A stretch of 38,524 bases of DNA from a virus, in IMG/VR virus record IMGVR_UViG_3300026183_000016, positions 1 through 38,524 of that record; one strand, given 5' to 3'. Under the pieces are notes generated by a model. That model was not told where the DNA came from and searched no databases. It saw only the letters and a program-made list of their open reading frames with translations. The stretch's first letter is position 1. Every line of letters begins with the position of its first letter. The translations under genes were made by a program, and so were the position numbers. Of this stretch, positions 996 to 25,589 are shown piece after piece.

Positions 996-3900
996 TTAAC
1001 TCCCGCTACCTACACCGGTGTAAGATGGATTTAAGCTGTTGCCGGTTAATCCGGTAATTATTTCAACATCATTAACAGAAGCAGTTGAAAAGAATAATTC
1101 ATTTGGTTCTGCTCTTACTTGAAATAAGTTACCAAATTTTGATTCGCTATCTCTTGGCACAATGACCACTGACGAAATTTGTGAAGACAGCTGGTTGTGT
1201 ATATACGTTGCTAGTTCAGTAAAGAAAAATGTATCACCAAAATCCCAATTACCAATTGCAAAATAATTATTGATAGCATTTATAACACTTGTTTTAATTT
1301 GATTATCTGTAAATGTTGCACCAGGAATTTTTACAATTCTAAATGATGCTTGATTAGCCACATTTGCAGTTGAACCAAACAACAACTTAAATTTAGCTGG
1401 AGAATAAACTATTTGATCACCAATAGTTTTATATTTTTCTAATTCTAATAATGAAGATTTTAATTCAGTTGATGTTGGTTGTAAAGGTAATTCAGATAAT
1501 GTTTTACCTGCTTTAAACCAGTTTTGTACATCAATATAATATGCTGTTTGTAAAATAATCATTTCAATTATGTTTGATACACTTGGATCAACACGTTGTG
1601 ATCTTGGTGCTGAATGTTTGTGCTGAAAATAAAACGGTTCGTTTGTATTTGCTGTTCTTCCAATATATGCTTTGTAAATAGTATCACCATTTACTCCATA
1701 TCTTTTTGTATAAGAATTTGTAGTACCATTTGTTAATTTTGTATTGTTAAAATAAAACTGTTCATCAGTTGTTAAAAATTCTAATCCTGTGCCTGTTAAT
1801 ACACTCACAACTGATACATCATGATTGATTTTGTAATAAGTGTAATTGTCATAATCGGTGTAACTGTTAAAAAATACATAGTGTGAATCATCAAGCAATC
1901 GTTCATGACCCAATGGATTATCAGGCATGCCATCATTGTCAGAATCTAAATTAGCAATTTTAACTTTTTTAGTATCAATGTATCCATCTTGTTCAACAAA
2001 TTCTTCTACCAGTTCAAATGTTACAGGATTTTTTAACTGTGTAGTACTTGACGGATTAGACAGTATTGTGTTGTCTTTGTTTATGTCCAGTATTTTAATT
2101 GTATCTTTAATTGCTTGACCTGTTTGTGTACTAATATTTTTGTATTTGTCAACATAATAAAATCTTACTTCTTCGGCACTTTCAAAAACATATTCTAAGC
2201 CTCTAATTGTGAAAACATATTTTGCACTTGCACCTGTACTTGATGCAGGCACATAAGATGCTCTTAGTAACCATGATGCATCTTGACCTAATGAATTATA
2301 GCCGCCAAATGTGTCATGGTATTGTACTGAAAAATCTGACGATGCATCAATAAAGTCTTCGTTTATAACATACCAGTTATTTTCATTTAACGAAGGGTCT
2401 CTGAAATGATAACCAATGCCAAAGTCTAGACCTGATTCCATTTGTGCTTGTATTGATGCTTTTTCATTCAATGACAATGCTGTCCTAAATGCTGGTAATA
2501 TTGTTCTTACTTTTAAACCAGCAGTGATTGACTCATCAAGTGTGATAGAACCTGATGTTTCACTGTTAAGAATAGAACCATCGTTTGTTATACTAACAAC
2601 TGTAGACCATTTAATAACAGTAGGGTTTGTATAACTGTCAACAAATTCTAATTTTGCACCTGGTCTAATAAATGCTAATTTGTCATCGCCGGAGTATGGA
2701 TTGTTAAACACAGTAATCAACTGAGCTGTGTTTGGTCTGCCTGTTACTAGTATTGGTGCATTACCAATGTAAAAGAATCCGTTATTTGATGCTCCGCTAA
2801 CCGGATATGGTTGCCAAGCAACTTGGTTAACTGATATTAAATCCATTTCAAATTGTTTATCAGAGTTACCTAAATTTGTGTAATTGGTTTCAACTGCTGT
2901 TTTGTAAGTGTCAAAATAAAAGTTTTTTAATTGTGATTTTTTTAGTAAAGATTCTAACACATTGTCAACAATGTAAGTGTAACTAGAACTATCAGAAACT
3001 ATTCCTGTAATATCTTCTGTGTCTAAATTGAAGTTTGGATTTTTATACAAGATGCCATCTTCGCCAAACACATTTAAACTTTTCACTGTGCCTGTTGGAT
3101 CGTTTGTGTCTAAATATCTTGAATGACCAATGTGCGTTCTATTGATTGTTTTAATCTTTTGAATAGTTTGCGATTGTGTTAAAGGAAAAATAGCATAATC
3201 TTCTGCATTAACCATTCTGTCTTGTGTATAGAACGCCACTGATGCATTGTTCTTAATGTTTGTATTAGTTTCAGTGTCAGAAGAATTGTTGACTGTGTAA
3301 GTTAGTGTTAAACTTAATGTTGCCACATATTCTTGACCTGCTTTGTTCAAATAAGTCACATTAATTTCTTGATTTTGAATTCTGTTTGCTCTTAGTATTT
3401 GACCTTTGCCTGAGCTTCTTCTGTACCAAAATCTAAAGTTGCCTTTGGGTGCTGTACCAAAATTACCATCAGCAAATAAAATTTTAACTTTGTCATTGTT
3501 TTCTGATTGCACGTTAAAAACATTTCTTTCTGCTAGAGCCAATGAATTGTAAATTGCATTTTGACCAAATAGTGAAGGAATTTTTTTCCATTTTTCTAAT
3601 GGTACACCTGATGCATTAACTTTTTGTACCCAAACATCTAAATCGTTGACATTTGATTTGTTAATAGAAACTGTTCTGTTAGGCAATGGTGTTGAAAAGA
3701 ATTGATCTTCATATTCCATTTCACCTTCTTTGAAATATACAAAGAAACCAGTGTCTGTTGAACCAAACCCTTGGTTGTCATTTCTGTATATCATAGTGAA
3801 CGCATCTGTTTGGTCTGGGGATCTTTCTTCTAAGTAACCATCAGTGTTGATTTGTGATTTAACAACTTCAATTTTTGTGTTGATACCATCTACTTTTGCT

Positions 3901-12659: not shown

Positions 12660-12703
12660 AATAAAATAAAAGCAGTATTTAATCATTTATTTGTCTTAAA
12701 TGG

Positions 12704-12732
12704 TTGACATTTTAACATCTAGAGAGTATATT
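12704..12732 (+). promoter_or_regulatory. sigma70-like promoter of gp55
   Basis: TTGACA at 12704-12709, a 17-base spacer and TATATT at 12727-12732, the best sigma70 match in the window. The expected start at about 12739 coincides with the ATG of gp55. An in-frame ATG at 12700 lies upstream of the -35 element and so cannot be in this message. Confidence 0.8.
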
Positions 12733-12738
12733 TGTATT

Positions 12739-13539
12739 ATGGCAAAAAGAATAAATTATTTAAACAACAAAGACATCTTAAAAGAAATACACAAAAGCAA
12801 GAACAGTTTCTGTTGCTACACAAAGCCAGAGTATGCAGATTATGATCTGATAATTACCACGCCTATTGAAAAAATTACCAAAACAAAAGTGCTTGAAGCA
12901 CGTAGAAATCGTGCCGCTAGACTCACACAATTGAAGGCTGAAGAACTTGGATTAAAGAAAAAAGAAATTGCTGAGCATGAAATTAAATTAAGGCACGTGG
13001 ATGATACTGATGTGATTATTAGAGTTGTTACATGGGATCACATTCCAGATGATCCGGATAGAAAAAACAATCCAAAAACTATAGCAGATACAAAAGTCAA
13101 ACTAAATTTTATTCCTTTTAAACATTATAAGTTAAATGATAATAATGATTGGGAAGAAGTTGGTAAAAGTCATCACATTGGACACAATCAATTTAGTAAA
13201 GATCATGGTAGAATGACCAATAAACTTGGGTTGATGTTTCTTAAACTGTGTGATAGATATGGTTCTCGATCCAATTGGAGAGGCTATACCTACAATGACG
13301 AAATGAGGGCACAAGCGTTGGTTCAACTGTCACAGATTGGTTTACAGTTTGACGAAAGCAAATCACAAAATCCATTTGCTTATTATACTGCGGCAATTAC
13401 CAACAGTTTTACTAGAATTTTAAATGTAGAGAAAAAACATCAAAGTTTAAGAGATGATATACTAGAAAGTCACGGAATGAGTCCTTCTTACACAAGACAA
13501 ATGGAAAATGAAATGTCCACTAAAGAGGGCAAGAAATAA
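12739..13539 (+). CDS. gp55: late-transcription sigma factor gp55
   Basis: A 266-residue protein homologous to T4 gp55, the small sigma factor that directs host RNA polymerase to late promoters. The N terminus (KRINYLNNKDILKEIHKSK, residues 3-21) and the C-terminal part (RGYTYNDEMRAQALVQLSQI, FDESKSQNPFAYYTAAITNS, residues about 175-225) match T4. Between them lie about 120 residues absent from T4 gp55 (185 residues): a Cys-Cys pair, a basic helix (VLEARRNRAARLTQLKAEEL) and TWDHIPDDPDRK. Marine T4-like phages share this enlarged form. The start at 12739 is chosen because the -35 element overlaps the longer frame. The message is probably leaderless. Its targets are the TATAAATA-like octamers in this window. 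Confidence 0.93.
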   Translation: MAKRINYLNNKDILKEIHKSKNSFCCYTKPEYADYDLIITTPIEKITKTKVLEARRNRAARLTQLKAEELGLKKKEIAEHEIKLRHVDDTDVIIRVVTWDHIPDDPDRKNNPKTIADTKVKLNFIPFKHYKLNDNNDWEEVGKSHHIGHNQFSKDHGRMTNKLGLMFLKLCDRYGSRSNWRGYTYNDEMRAQALVQLSQIGLQFDESKSQNPFAYYTAAITNSFTRILNVEKKHQSLRDDILESHGMSPSYTRQMENEMSTKEGKK

Positions 13540-21834: not shown

Positions 21835-22185
21835 ATGTTTAGTGTAGAAGATTTATACATTGTAGAAAATAAAAAAATTAAAAACATAGCAAAAAAAGAT
21901 CATGCTGTGGATTGGATTGGTGGCAGTTGTGTTTACAAGATATTAATTGGAGACCAAGTAGTACATGTTGGTAGATCTGACACCTGTAAAAAACATGGAG
22001 GTGCTGAAAAAACAAGAAAAGCCATTGTACAATTGTTAGGTTGGGAAAAACACAATTCTGGAATTACGACCACAAAAATTTGGAAAGCAATAAAAAACAA
22101 ATTCAAACCAGATATACAAAATATCAAAGTTGAAGTTATTTTTACTAAAAATATTGAAAAAGTTTACAGCAAAGAATTGATTTAA
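21835..22185 (+). CDS. small GIY-YIG-like protein
   Basis: A 116-residue protein. The pattern CVYKILIGDQVVHVGRSDT (residues 32-50) follows the GIY-YIG nuclease core, with CVY in place of GIY, HVG in place of YIG and Arg47 right after. A glutamate near the end (Glu114 in YSKELI) falls where the family has its metal-binding Glu. The protein is short enough to be a bare catalytic domain without a DNA-targeting part. The first motif is degenerate, so activity is uncertain. It may be a repair or homing-type nuclease or an inactive relative. Its stop overlaps, on the opposite strand, the stop of the gp26 extension. Confidence 0.6.
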   Translation: MFSVEDLYIVENKKIKNIAKKDHAVDWIGGSCVYKILIGDQVVHVGRSDTCKKHGGAEKTRKAIVQLLGWEKHNSGITTTKIWKAIKNKFKPDIQNIKVEVIFTKNIEKVYSKELI

Positions 22186-22412
22186 ACCACAGGGCTCATT
22201 GATCCTTTGTATCTTTCCATGTTGTCTTTTAAAAATTCTTGAATGATTTTTTTATCTTCGTAACTTAATGCCCAGGCTTGATTCCAAGACACAGAACCTC
22301 TCATGTACCAACAAATTTCAGCAATCTGTTTTCTTATGTCGTGACTTTCTTCTGCTAATCTTCTAAAGTATTCTCCAACGTCAGAAGGCGAGTGTGTTAT
22401 TAAGTAATTACG
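22182..22412 (-). CDS. -1 frame extension of gp26-like protein (probable frameshift product tail)
   Basis: This frame overlaps the end of the gp26-like gene in the -1 register. It continues for 76 codons from CGT (22412-22410) to a TAA at 22184-22182. It has no ATG before residue 39, so it is unlikely to be translated alone. The sequence looks like real protein: helical, with GEYFRRLAEESHDIRKQIAE, then CWYMRGSVSWNQAWALSYED and KKIIQEFLKDN. A Trp/Gly followed by W-x(4)-W-x-L/M-S-Y-x-D/E-(K/R) is typical of tail assembly chaperone extensions placed before tape measure genes. The fusion would be about 354 residues against 281 for the unshifted product. Confidence 0.7.
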   Translation of the reverse strand, partial: RNYLITHSPSDVGEYFRRLAEESHDIRKQIAEICWYMRGSVSWNQAWALSYEDKKIIQEFLKDNMERYKGSMSPVV

Positions 22413-23245
22413 AAAAAATCCGCTGGATCCAATTTCACGTCAGCAGTGAATTCTTTTTCAGTTTGTTTGCAAATCAATGTTTGTTTGGTCACAGTTGAAA
22501 ATTTATTAAGTCTGTCAATTTCTTTGTCAATTAATTTGCTGTTTTGTGCATCAAGATTATCAATAAACTCTTTGATGTGAGCTCTGTTTTCAACAATGTC
22601 ACCATTTGGTGTTACAATTTTTACAACACTTTCAGTTAACAAGTTCATGTTTGTTTCTGCTAGTTTTACAAACATATTTTTAAATTGATTAACTTCAGGA
22701 TTGTTTTGCACTTGATTTAATGTTTGTAGTGCTTTGGCTTGATCATATGCAACCAAATTTAATTTGGTTTGTAATTCATATGACAATGGTCTAACATACA
22801 CAGTTATACCATTTTTTAACACAACATAATTTTCAGATTCCATAACTTCAACATTTTCTAAAATACTGTTTAAGTTAATTTCATATGTTTCTTCTTGACC
22901 GCTGTGTGGAGAAGTCAATCTAGTTTCCATAATTTCACCATACGTGGCCATTCGAATAGCAATTAACAAAATGTCCACATCACACACTGGCAGTTTTCTA
23001 GTCTCCTTGATGCTTGGTGCACAACTCTGTACAATTTTTATAACAGAATCACCATTGAGTAGTGCATCTGGATTTCTCATGTACAACTCATCTTTGGTTG
23101 TCATTGGAAAAACCGCAATTTCATCAGTTGGTGCTTGGTCATCAACTGTGTTAAACTTGGCTCCAGATGGCAATTTTATATAAAGTTTTGGAGCTCTATA
23201 AAACTGTTTTAACGGATTGATATTTTCGTTTTGTTGTTCTGACAT
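22400..23245 (-). CDS. gp26: baseplate hub assembly protein gp26-like
   Basis: A 281-residue protein of the T4 gp26 family. Typical parts are NPLKQFYRAPKLYIKLPSG (residues 10-28), VFPMTTKDELYMRNPDALLN (45-64), SVIKIVQSCAPSIKETRKLP and CDVDILLIAIRMATYGEIME. Most relatives have Cys-rich CxxC pairs after the last block; here that place reads TSPHSGQEETYEINLNS without cysteines. T4 gp26 (208 residues) helps hub assembly. The gene is divergent from the tape measure gene. The late octamer at 23272-23279 gives a 20-base leader with AAGGA. The final codons contain the slippery heptamer T TTT TTC at residues 277-278. Confidence 0.85.
   Translation of the reverse strand: MSEQQNENINPLKQFYRAPKLYIKLPSGAKFNTVDDQAPTDEIAVFPMTTKDELYMRNPDALLNGDSVIKIVQSCAPSIKETRKLPVCDVDILLIAIRMATYGEIMETRLTSPHSGQEETYEINLNSILENVEVMESENYVVLKNGITVYVRPLSYELQTKLNLVAYDQAKALQTLNQVQNNPEVNQFKNMFVKLAETNMNLLTESVVKIVTPNGDIVENRAHIKEFIDNLDAQNSKLIDKEIDRLNKFSTVTKQTLICKQTEKEFTADVKLDPADFFVIT
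22412..22418 (-). promoter_or_regulatory. -1 ribosomal frameshift slippery heptamer T TTT TTC
   Basis: On the minus strand the gp26 codons GAT TTT TTC form a canonical X XXY YYZ site with X and Y both T, three codons before the stop. Slippage by -1 enters a 76-codon open frame. A weak downstream stem (CTTCT with AGAAG) is the only stimulatory structure I can see. Confidence 0.7.
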
Positions 23246-23280: not shown

Positions 23281-23288
23281 TATAAATA
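23281..23288 (+). promoter_or_regulatory. late promoter octamer (perfect TATAAATA) of the tape measure gene
   Basis: Exact consensus with a predicted +1 at 23294. The leader is 46 bases and carries GGAGA about 28 bases before the ATG, too far for a usual ribosome-binding site. Confidence 0.65.
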
Positions 23289-23339: not shown

Positions 23340-25589
23340 ATGATAGATCTTGAATTAGAGGGACAGACGATAAGAATACCAGAATTTGCAATGGACAAAT
23401 CCATTCAGATTCTTATTCAGTTGGCCAAGAAGCAAGGACTAGACTTAACTTCTATTGAAAAGTCTGACAAGCGTACAGCCACAGTGCTTTCCAGAATGGA
23501 AAAAATCTTAACTGGACAAAAAGAACAGTTAGCAAAACAAACCAAAGAAGGTCAAAAAGGAATCCAAGCACAAAAAAAAGAATCTAGCGAAACTGCAAAA
23601 GTTCGTGAAGCCATTAATAACGCAACAAAATCAAATTCAGCAAAACTTGAACAGTTGGCTGAAAAAATTGGCGACAAAAATGCAGGTGGGTTGTTAGGAG
23701 GTGTTGTTGGTAAACTTGGAATCTTTAGTAAATTCTTATCAGTAGGTGCCGCGGCACTTGCCGGTTTTGCCACAGCCATAACCACTGCTTTCAAATTCTT
23801 AATGAGATTAGGACAACTTGAAGGCACACTATTTAGAACTGGATTTTTTAGTTTTGATTCTCAAGAAGGATTGGCTCAAGGTATTACTTCGTTGACAGTG
23901 TCAGCCGCAAATGCAAGATTGAGTTTAGAACAAGCAACTGAAATTTTGACACAATATTCAAAAGCCATGGATGCTTATGGAAGTGAAACAATTTTGTCAG
24001 CAATCACAAACACACAGAATCTTTTAGAATCACAGGGCTTCTTGGCACAGAGTTATCAAGAGATTGCTAATGCAGTTGCTGAACAATCAGACATTTTTGC
24101 AAAAGCAGGATTGTCAGTGGGAGCAAATGGTGTAGCACTAGCAAATCATTCAGCAGAATTATTAAGAAGCACAGTGGCATTTTCTGATTTGACAAACACA
24201 TCTGCAGATTTGATTAGAACGCTAGTGGTACAGGCATCAACAAATCAAGTGTTCTTAAACAGATTACAAATGTTACCAGAATCAATTCGACAGTCAACAC
24301 TGTCATCGGCTCAAGAAGCCTTTGCAGGATTGGCCGCATTTGGAGAACAAGCAGGTGGCGAGCTCACAAGAATTTTAAGTGAAGGTATAGGTTTTGGTAA
24401 TTTGGCATTCTCGCAATCATTTAGAGATTTGGTTGTGACATCACCGCAGTTGGCAGACTCATTGTATAATTTACAAAACACAATAACAGGTGGTGGCAGT
24501 GTTATTGACGGGCTAGAAACATTTAGGCAAACTGTGTTAGACGTTAGTGATGGTGAAAGACAAAGATTACAAGCATTGTCTATTATGGGAGATCAGACAG
24601 CATCAACGGTGTTGGCATTGATCAATCAACAAAAATTATTAACAGATGAAACCAATAACTTTGTGAGGCTGAGAAGACAAGCGGCAAATTTACAACCAGG
24701 TGAGTTAGCAAATATACAAGCAAGATTACAAGCGGCTATGGCAGAGTTGAGTACTAGATTTCAAAAACTAGCGGCGTCATTTTTGACATCAGGTGTGGTT
24801 GATATGTTTGGCAATATTATGGATGGGGTTATAAAGTTAGTGCAAAAACTTGGCGAGCAAGGTGGCTTCATTGACACAATTGGTAACAAGATAACTCAAG
24901 CATTACAGAATTCAGAAAACTTTATAAAAAAAGTCAAAGACTTTTTTACAAACACTGTTGAAGGATTCACAAGTTTTATTTCAAGTGCATTAACTAACGG
25001 AATATCAGCAGGTATTGCCAGAGGTGTTGCACTGGCATTACCAGGTGGTGACAATGCAAAAAAATTAGCGATGTATGATGAAGTACAAAAGATGCTTGAA
25101 AACAATCCTAATGATCCTGACACACTTAAAAAAGCATACGCAATATTACGTAGAGGCAATTTAGAAGCAAAATCAACTGATCCGTGGGCCGAATATGCTT
25201 ACGAAAATAGAGGAGCAGAATCTCTACAACAATACATCCAGAAAGAAATAGGTCAGTATTATACCAAGCCGCTGTTTCCACAACCAGGTGAAATGGGTTC
25301 GCCAACTGGCATTGTAAATCCTAATCAGCAAGGTGGAACACAAGGTGGAACACAACAGTCAGACGGTATAAGTGGCACTAGCAGGCAAAAAATTAAAATT
25401 TTACCAATGTTTGGTGATCCAACGAAATATCTTGAACAAGGTGAAATGACTGAAGGAGAGTATAGAAGAAAACAAATTGAAATACTCCAAGAACAGATTA
25501 ACATACTAAACAAAATCAACACTAATTCAAAAAATCAAGTGACTTCTATTGATAAACAGACAAATACGTTGCAAAGTACAACATCTTAA
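23340..25589 (+). CDS. gp29: tail tape measure protein gp29-like
   Basis: A 749-residue protein. The N-terminal 110 residues are Gln/Lys-rich helix. A hydrophobic block at about 115-160 (GGLLGGVVGKLGIF, VGAAALAGFATAITTAFKF) is typical of tape measure proteins. Long helical stretches with many Ala, Gln and Ser follow to residue 560. The C terminus is a linker rich in Gly, Gln and Pro, then a coiled coil (YRRKQIEILQEQINILNKIN). Tape measures set tail length and enter the host envelope; T4 gp29 has 590 residues, so a longer tail is possible. Its place next to the gp26 unit mirrors lambda G/GT-H, but here on opposite strands. No clear Shine-Dalgarno sequence precedes the ATG. Confidence 0.83.
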   Translation: MIDLELEGQTIRIPEFAMDKSIQILIQLAKKQGLDLTSIEKSDKRTATVLSRMEKILTGQKEQLAKQTKEGQKGIQAQKKESSETAKVREAINNATKSNSAKLEQLAEKIGDKNAGGLLGGVVGKLGIFSKFLSVGAAALAGFATAITTAFKFLMRLGQLEGTLFRTGFFSFDSQEGLAQGITSLTVSAANARLSLEQATEILTQYSKAMDAYGSETILSAITNTQNLLESQGFLAQSYQEIANAVAEQSDIFAKAGLSVGANGVALANHSAELLRSTVAFSDLTNTSADLIRTLVVQASTNQVFLNRLQMLPESIRQSTLSSAQEAFAGLAAFGEQAGGELTRILSEGIGFGNLAFSQSFRDLVVTSPQLADSLYNLQNTITGGGSVIDGLETFRQTVLDVSDGERQRLQALSIMGDQTASTVLALINQQKLLTDETNNFVRLRRQAANLQPGELANIQARLQAAMAELSTRFQKLAASFLTSGVVDMFGNIMDGVIKLVQKLGEQGGFIDTIGNKITQALQNSENFIKKVKDFFTNTVEGFTSFISSALTNGISAGIARGVALALPGGDNAKKLAMYDEVQKMLENNPNDPDTLKKAYAILRRGNLEAKSTDPWAEYAYENRGAESLQQYIQKEIGQYYTKPLFPQPGEMGSPTGIVNPNQQGGTQGGTQQSDGISGTSRQKIKILPMFGDPTKYLEQGEMTEGEYRRKQIEILQEQINILNKINTNSKNQVTSIDKQTNTLQSTTS

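Follow-up and report, generated by a model that had tools for sequence, protein, structure and literature searches.

The gp26-like gene of the window (the whole stretch of viral DNA analysed, 38,524 nucleotides from an uncultured, giant T4-like phage) is very probably expressed as two proteins through a -1 frameshift, giving a short and a long tail assembly chaperone, as judged from the sequence of this locus and of its relatives. The features on which this proposal is based are as follows.

22400..23245, minus strand: gp26-like gene of 281 aa encoding the short product, the proposed TAC-N; Pfam T4_baseplate PF12322, phrog_150
22412..22418, minus strand: slippery heptamer T TTT TTC in the register X XXY YYZ (GAT TTT TTC)
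22400..22402, minus strand: zero-frame stop codon TAA, three codons past the heptamer
22182..22412, minus strand: -1 frame extension of 76 codons and a stop, the proposed C part of the long product TAC-NC
22302..22304, minus strand: first ATG of the -1 frame, at residue 39 counted from FF and part of the conserved WYMRG motif
23340..25589, plus strand: divergent neighbour encoding a probable tape measure protein of 749 aa; phrog_10613, E 0.0014

The gp26-like gene and its -1 frame extension

The product of the gp26-like gene matches T4_baseplate (PF12322) at 57.7 bits, above the curated cut-off of 24.5, and its PHROGs match, phrog_150, is described as 'baseplate hub'. The ATG is preceded by a Shine-Dalgarno-like AAGGA and the 3' end reads GAT TTT TTC GTA ATT ACT TAA. 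The perfect T TTT TTC that the preliminary description had reported here is indeed present in the correct register. TTTTTTC is found 34 times in this AT-rich window, where 31.1 ± 5.5 occurrences are expected. A lone motif is therefore at chance level and by itself proves nothing; its significance comes from conservation.

The -1 frame downstream of the heptamer is open for 76 codons (22185–22412), translates as RNYLITHSPSDVGEYFRRLAEESHDIRKQIAEICWYMRGSVSWNQAWALSYEDKKIIQEFLKDNMERYKGSMSPVV and closes with a TAA at 22182–22184, making a predicted fusion of 278 + 76 = 354 aa. Both the extent of this open frame and the lack of an ATG before residue 39, as first described, were borne out, and no Shine-Dalgarno sequence was found in the 25 nt ahead of the first ATG. 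The AlphaFold2 model of the extension is a helical domain (pLDDT 87). A Pfam scan of 64 extensions gave scattered weak matches only, PDB sequence and fold searches with the extension gave nothing useful, and in the PHROGs search of extensions one member matched phrog_634, 'baseplate hub assembly catalyst', at E 0.0022. A convergent ORF of 116 aa without a family match lies at 21835–22185 on the plus strand, where its stop overlaps that of the extension (TTTAAA).

We infer that slippage occurs, that the long product is the minor one and, by analogy with lambda G/GT, that both act as chaperones on the tape measure protein. Most ribosomes would end at the zero-frame TAA to give the 281 aa gp26 (TAC-N). 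A fraction would slip back one base by tandem slippage, with tRNA-Phe on the TTT and TTC of T TTT TTC, and these would read 76 more codons to give the 354 aa gp26-extension fusion (TAC-NC). If the pair works as G/GT does in lambda, the tape measure protein would be coated by the short form, and the long form would use its helical extension to recruit subunits of the tail tube or hub.

Conservation of the slippery site

Relatives were taken from IMG/VR and from the isolated jumbo phages Atu_ph07, Phosso, PA5oct, XaC1, RaK2, SNUABM_19, CBB, PHA46, Kaldavass, GAP32, Vibrio 2.275.O, PBECO4, XbC2, XacN1, RAS14 and SCTP-2. This jumbo-type set contains 120 loci covering the gp26 end, 82 after dereplication, with identity down to 22%. 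A canonical in-register heptamer near the gp26 stop, followed by an open -1 frame of about 72–97 codons, is present in all 120. The heptamers are TTTTTTC in 112 loci, TTTTTTT in 3 and AAATTTT in 5 (75, 3 and 4 in the dereplicated set), while at other positions of the same genes canonical heptamers occupy only 169 of 23,253 codon positions (0.7%). The codon preceding the heptamer encodes N, S, D, H, A, Y or R, and at the poly-T sites its third base is always T.

The FF encoded at the site is invariant in a 20-sequence alignment; the zero-frame tail beyond it differs in length and sequence. A conservative chance test was made in which the conserved FF was taken as given and only the choices between T or C were counted. 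The probability is then ~0.47 per lineage, which comes to 10^-9 for 28 clusters at 50% identity and to 10^-3.6 with 11 clusters at 40% identity. The five AAATTTT sites (L157, L161, L191, L200 and L203), where T TTT TTC has been swapped naturally for A AAT TTT at the same place, weigh more as evidence than the heptamer count. In these FF has been lost from the end of the zero-frame protein, and still a heptamer suited to tandem slippage is kept in place.

The same five sites bear on whether the frame is changed by transcriptional slippage on the T run, rather than by the ribosome. The site is a six-T run in most genomes, which speaks for such slippage, but its codon register is fixed, A AAT TTT keeps tandem tRNA slippage with the T run cut to five, and hairpins lie a few bases downstream, the usual place of ribosomal stimulators. 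Transcriptional slippage is thus the least probable of the explanations considered.

Downstream structure helps -1 frameshifting and is not obligatory for it. When compared with dinucleotide shuffles and with six other positions, the 50 nt beginning at +4 past the heptamer have the greater stability on average. Across the 82 jumbo-type genomes the mean z is -0.94, against 0 to -0.3 elsewhere (P 1e-3 to 6e-6), and across 39 cyanophage-type genomes it is -2.47, against -0.6 to +0.3 elsewhere (P < 1e-7). In cyanophage S-PM2 a near-perfect hairpin begins 9 nt past the heptamer and is kept in relatives despite sequence change. No convincing stimulatory hairpin is seen at the site of the window itself (z -1.3), nor in its close relatives L006, L014 and L024 (z about -0.6 to +1.3).

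Among pairs of extensions that are >55% identical, mismatches per codon at -1 frame positions 1, 2 and 3 are 0.30, 0.18 and 0.53. By this pattern the extension evolves as coding sequence. It could be a small gene in its own right, with translation beginning at a separate start codon or through termination-reinitiation at the stop of gp26, and with the heptamer incidental. Several genomes do have the extension annotated as its own ORF, as with the ATGA overlap in Phosso and the 'gp51' of S-PM2, and TAATG junctions are found without a canonical heptamer in the Ackermannviridae-like K475 and Cygsa01. An ATG is located upstream of FF, or by the eighth residue past it, in the -1 frame of 13 of the 82 jumbo-type relatives, where independent initiation may be possible. 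Against this, the frame in PA5oct contains no ATG, GTG or TTG anywhere, those of L174, L201 and L214 have no ATG, and the window's first ATG falls within the conserved WYMRG motif and lacks a Shine-Dalgarno sequence. The heptamer is also kept even in genomes where an ATG exists. To judge from these frames, the extension usually cannot start translation by itself, and a separate gene is very improbable.

The reading of the site as a programmed -1 frameshift, proposed in the preliminary description, is supported by heptamers that are conserved with turnover, by a -1 frame that is open in every relative and by coding-type evolution. It is also backed by the frequent lack of a usable start codon and by the hairpins in many relatives.

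In Stenotrophomonas phage IME-SM1 (L147, about 3720–3740) the extension is in the +1 frame and gp26 is lengthened. The stretch around its gp26 end is 401 nt, against 402 nt aligned in 14 other Stenotrophomonas phage records. Being one base shorter than its relatives, this exception is probably a one-base indel, and probably a homopolymer sequencing error.

Other groups of phages have comparable sites. In all 81 cyanophage-type loci, T TTT TTC lies exactly one codon ahead of the stop and is followed by an open -1 frame. S-PM2 gp26, for example, ends TCT TTT TTC GCA TAA, and the ORF of 57 aa annotated as gp51 is the -1 frame continuation of gp26. T TTT TTC is also found in Vibrio phage ValKK3 (Straboviridae) and Pseudomonas phage Astolliot, and the site of Sinorhizobium phage phiN3 is T TTT TTT. 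The Ackermannviridae-like K475, MAM1 and Cygsa01 (L148, L149 and L150; MAM1 is a Serratia phage of the Ackermannviridae) retain a -1 extension without a canonical heptamer, and the TAATG junctions of K475 and Cygsa01 could allow reinitiation.

Relation to T4 gp26 and gp51 and the chaperone function

The gp26 profiles of the window's family and of the cyanophages align at E 2.6e-13, and the extension profiles at E 1.8e-4 over 33 columns only. The cyanophage extension in turn aligns with residues 207–244 of T4 gp51 at E 2.9e-5, with a local score of 58 against a shuffle maximum of 44. In PHROGs, T4 gp51 spans both phrog_150 and phrog_634; the cyanophage extension reaches just the C-terminal part of each. 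On these alignments, the gp26 short form and the extension share ancestry with gp26 and gp51. For the cyanophage product called gp51 (baseplate hub assembly catalyst; 4191–4364 of L063, and cyanophage records), the match to T4 gp51 is confined to the C-terminal tail; most likely this product is the frameshift extension and not a whole gp51. If the shift occurs, the long form by sequence contains all of the short form and continues into a C-terminal tail, the same layout as T4 gp51.

The AlphaFold2 model of gp26 (pLDDT 90) matches predicted T4-type gp26 proteins in BFVD, such as gp26 of Aeromonas phage 25 (E 8e-6). No match to the PDB, solved TAC N domains included, was found for this model at E <= 0.001, and a PDB sequence search with gp26 gave nothing useful. 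Membership of the TACs by fold is therefore not claimed; the function is proposed by analogy and from homology to T4 gp26 and gp51.

That gp26 is the short and the gp26-extension fusion the long tail assembly chaperone is, by this analogy, the best reading. The chaperone role put forward initially gains support in that the short product is a homologue of gp26 (T4_baseplate) and the extension is homologous to the tail at the C-terminus of T4 gp51. Alternatively, frameshifting could be real and its products structural proteins of the baseplate hub. Databases call the family 'baseplate hub', and a review reports that some genetic studies assigned T4 gp26 to the hub (PMC3004832). The same review, however, names both gp26 and gp51 as chaperones of hub assembly and describes gp51 as necessary for assembly but not part of the particle. 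In phage CBB, the homologue CBB_250 (gp26) and the extension CBB_249 are missing from the virion mass spectrometry list (PMC5259590). This fits non-virion chaperones, as an absence of detection only. A structural role is unlikely, although less so than either of the alternatives to ribosomal frameshifting.

The neighbouring gene had been taken for the tape measure gene. It is divergent as described, and its identity is plausible with weak sequence support (the phrog_10613 match). Its positional counterpart in phage CBB, CBB_251, was detected in the virion with good coverage (29 peptides; PMC5259590). The T4 late promoter consensus TATAAATA is present at 23281–23288 on the plus strand, which is 51 nt ahead of the probable tape measure gene. 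Six copies occur in the window, where four are expected, a number that is not significant by count. A gene for a T4-type late sigma factor is located at 12700–13539 of the window.

Two genes with PF12322 matches, 26 and 51, are found in T4, Krischvirus SFHK24, Aeromonas 31, RB43, KARL-1 and two T4-type IMG/VR contigs. In whole-genome searches the other isolates with a match have one such gene; SCTP-2 has no Pfam match and its gene is present by tblastn. The combination of heptamer and extension at the end of gene 26 is absent in all seven two-gene genomes examined, whereas the one-gene genomes mostly have the slippery site with the extension. The end of T4 gene 26 retains FF, as GAG TTC TTT. 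In RB43 there is a T TTA AAG a few codons ahead of the stop, the -1 frame soon closes and gene 25 is next. When the jumbo genomes were searched with a profile of the cyanophage extension, no convincing second copy turned up. Contrary to the earlier statement that gene 51 follows 26 in T4, 51 is divergent from 26, the two being 50 nt apart.

We favour, with modest confidence, frameshifting as the ancestral route to the two chaperone forms across the T4 superfamily, including the jumbo phages. The T4 lineage would then have switched to gene duplication with an in-frame fusion (26 and 51), and its slippery site would have decayed afterwards. In this reading the heptamer itself would have been exchanged (T TTT TTC, A AAT TTT) without a change of position.

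Comparison with known systems

In lambda (gpG/gpGT) and P2 (E/E+E'), a short protein and a longer frameshifted protein are encoded beside the tape measure gene, and the first frame has a conserved slippery site close to its end. The proposed arrangement in the window has the same short and longer frameshifted forms and a slippery site near the end. It differs in that the gene is divergent from the probable tape measure gene and in that searches of solved structures by sequence and by fold gave no match.

The preliminary description knew of no frameshift in the gp26 family. This looks wrong, since two papers that cite Vladimirov, Gautam and Davidson 2022 (Virology 566:9-15) imply that one was described there. 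As represented in these citing papers, some T4-like phages have a short gene and a fused long gene instead of frameshifting (PRFect, PMC10885494), and TAC-N genes of T4-like phages, like that of the window, have poly-T frameshift signals (the Adele paper, PMC12846349). From these citations the principle of a frameshifted chaperone in T4-like phages appears to be known already, and the window's locus to be a new, well-supported case. In none of the records examined is the gene annotated as joined. In many jumbo phages and cyanophages the stretch in question carries an intergenic or hypothetical annotation, and the frameshift reading explains it.

In the TAC of the Vandenendeviridae and Andersonviridae, TAC-N likewise ends with a T-rich -1 site that is conserved, and the part downstream is annotated as a hypothetical gene (PMC12846349). 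These are other phage families, and the GTTTTT motif as printed is not a full X XXY YYZ heptamer.

The cyanophage gp26 and 'gp51' (S-PM2, Kyanoviridae) share with the window a T TTT TTC at the gp26 end and a -1 extension. The cyanophage site, unlike that of the window, is one codon ahead of the stop and has a strong downstream hairpin. The extension there is about 60 codons and closer to T4 gp51, and the gene order is not divergent, whereas that of the window is.

T4 gp26 and gp51 are of the same protein family (PF12322) and have, like the proposed products of the window, a short form and a C-terminal tail of the long form. In T4 and its close relatives the pair would come from two genes, 26 for the short form and 51 for a gp26 domain fused in frame to the tail, while in the window a single gene with a -1 frame extension would provide both. 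The two therefore offer a clean natural comparison of recoding and gene duplication, as two routes to one pair of tail assembly proteins.
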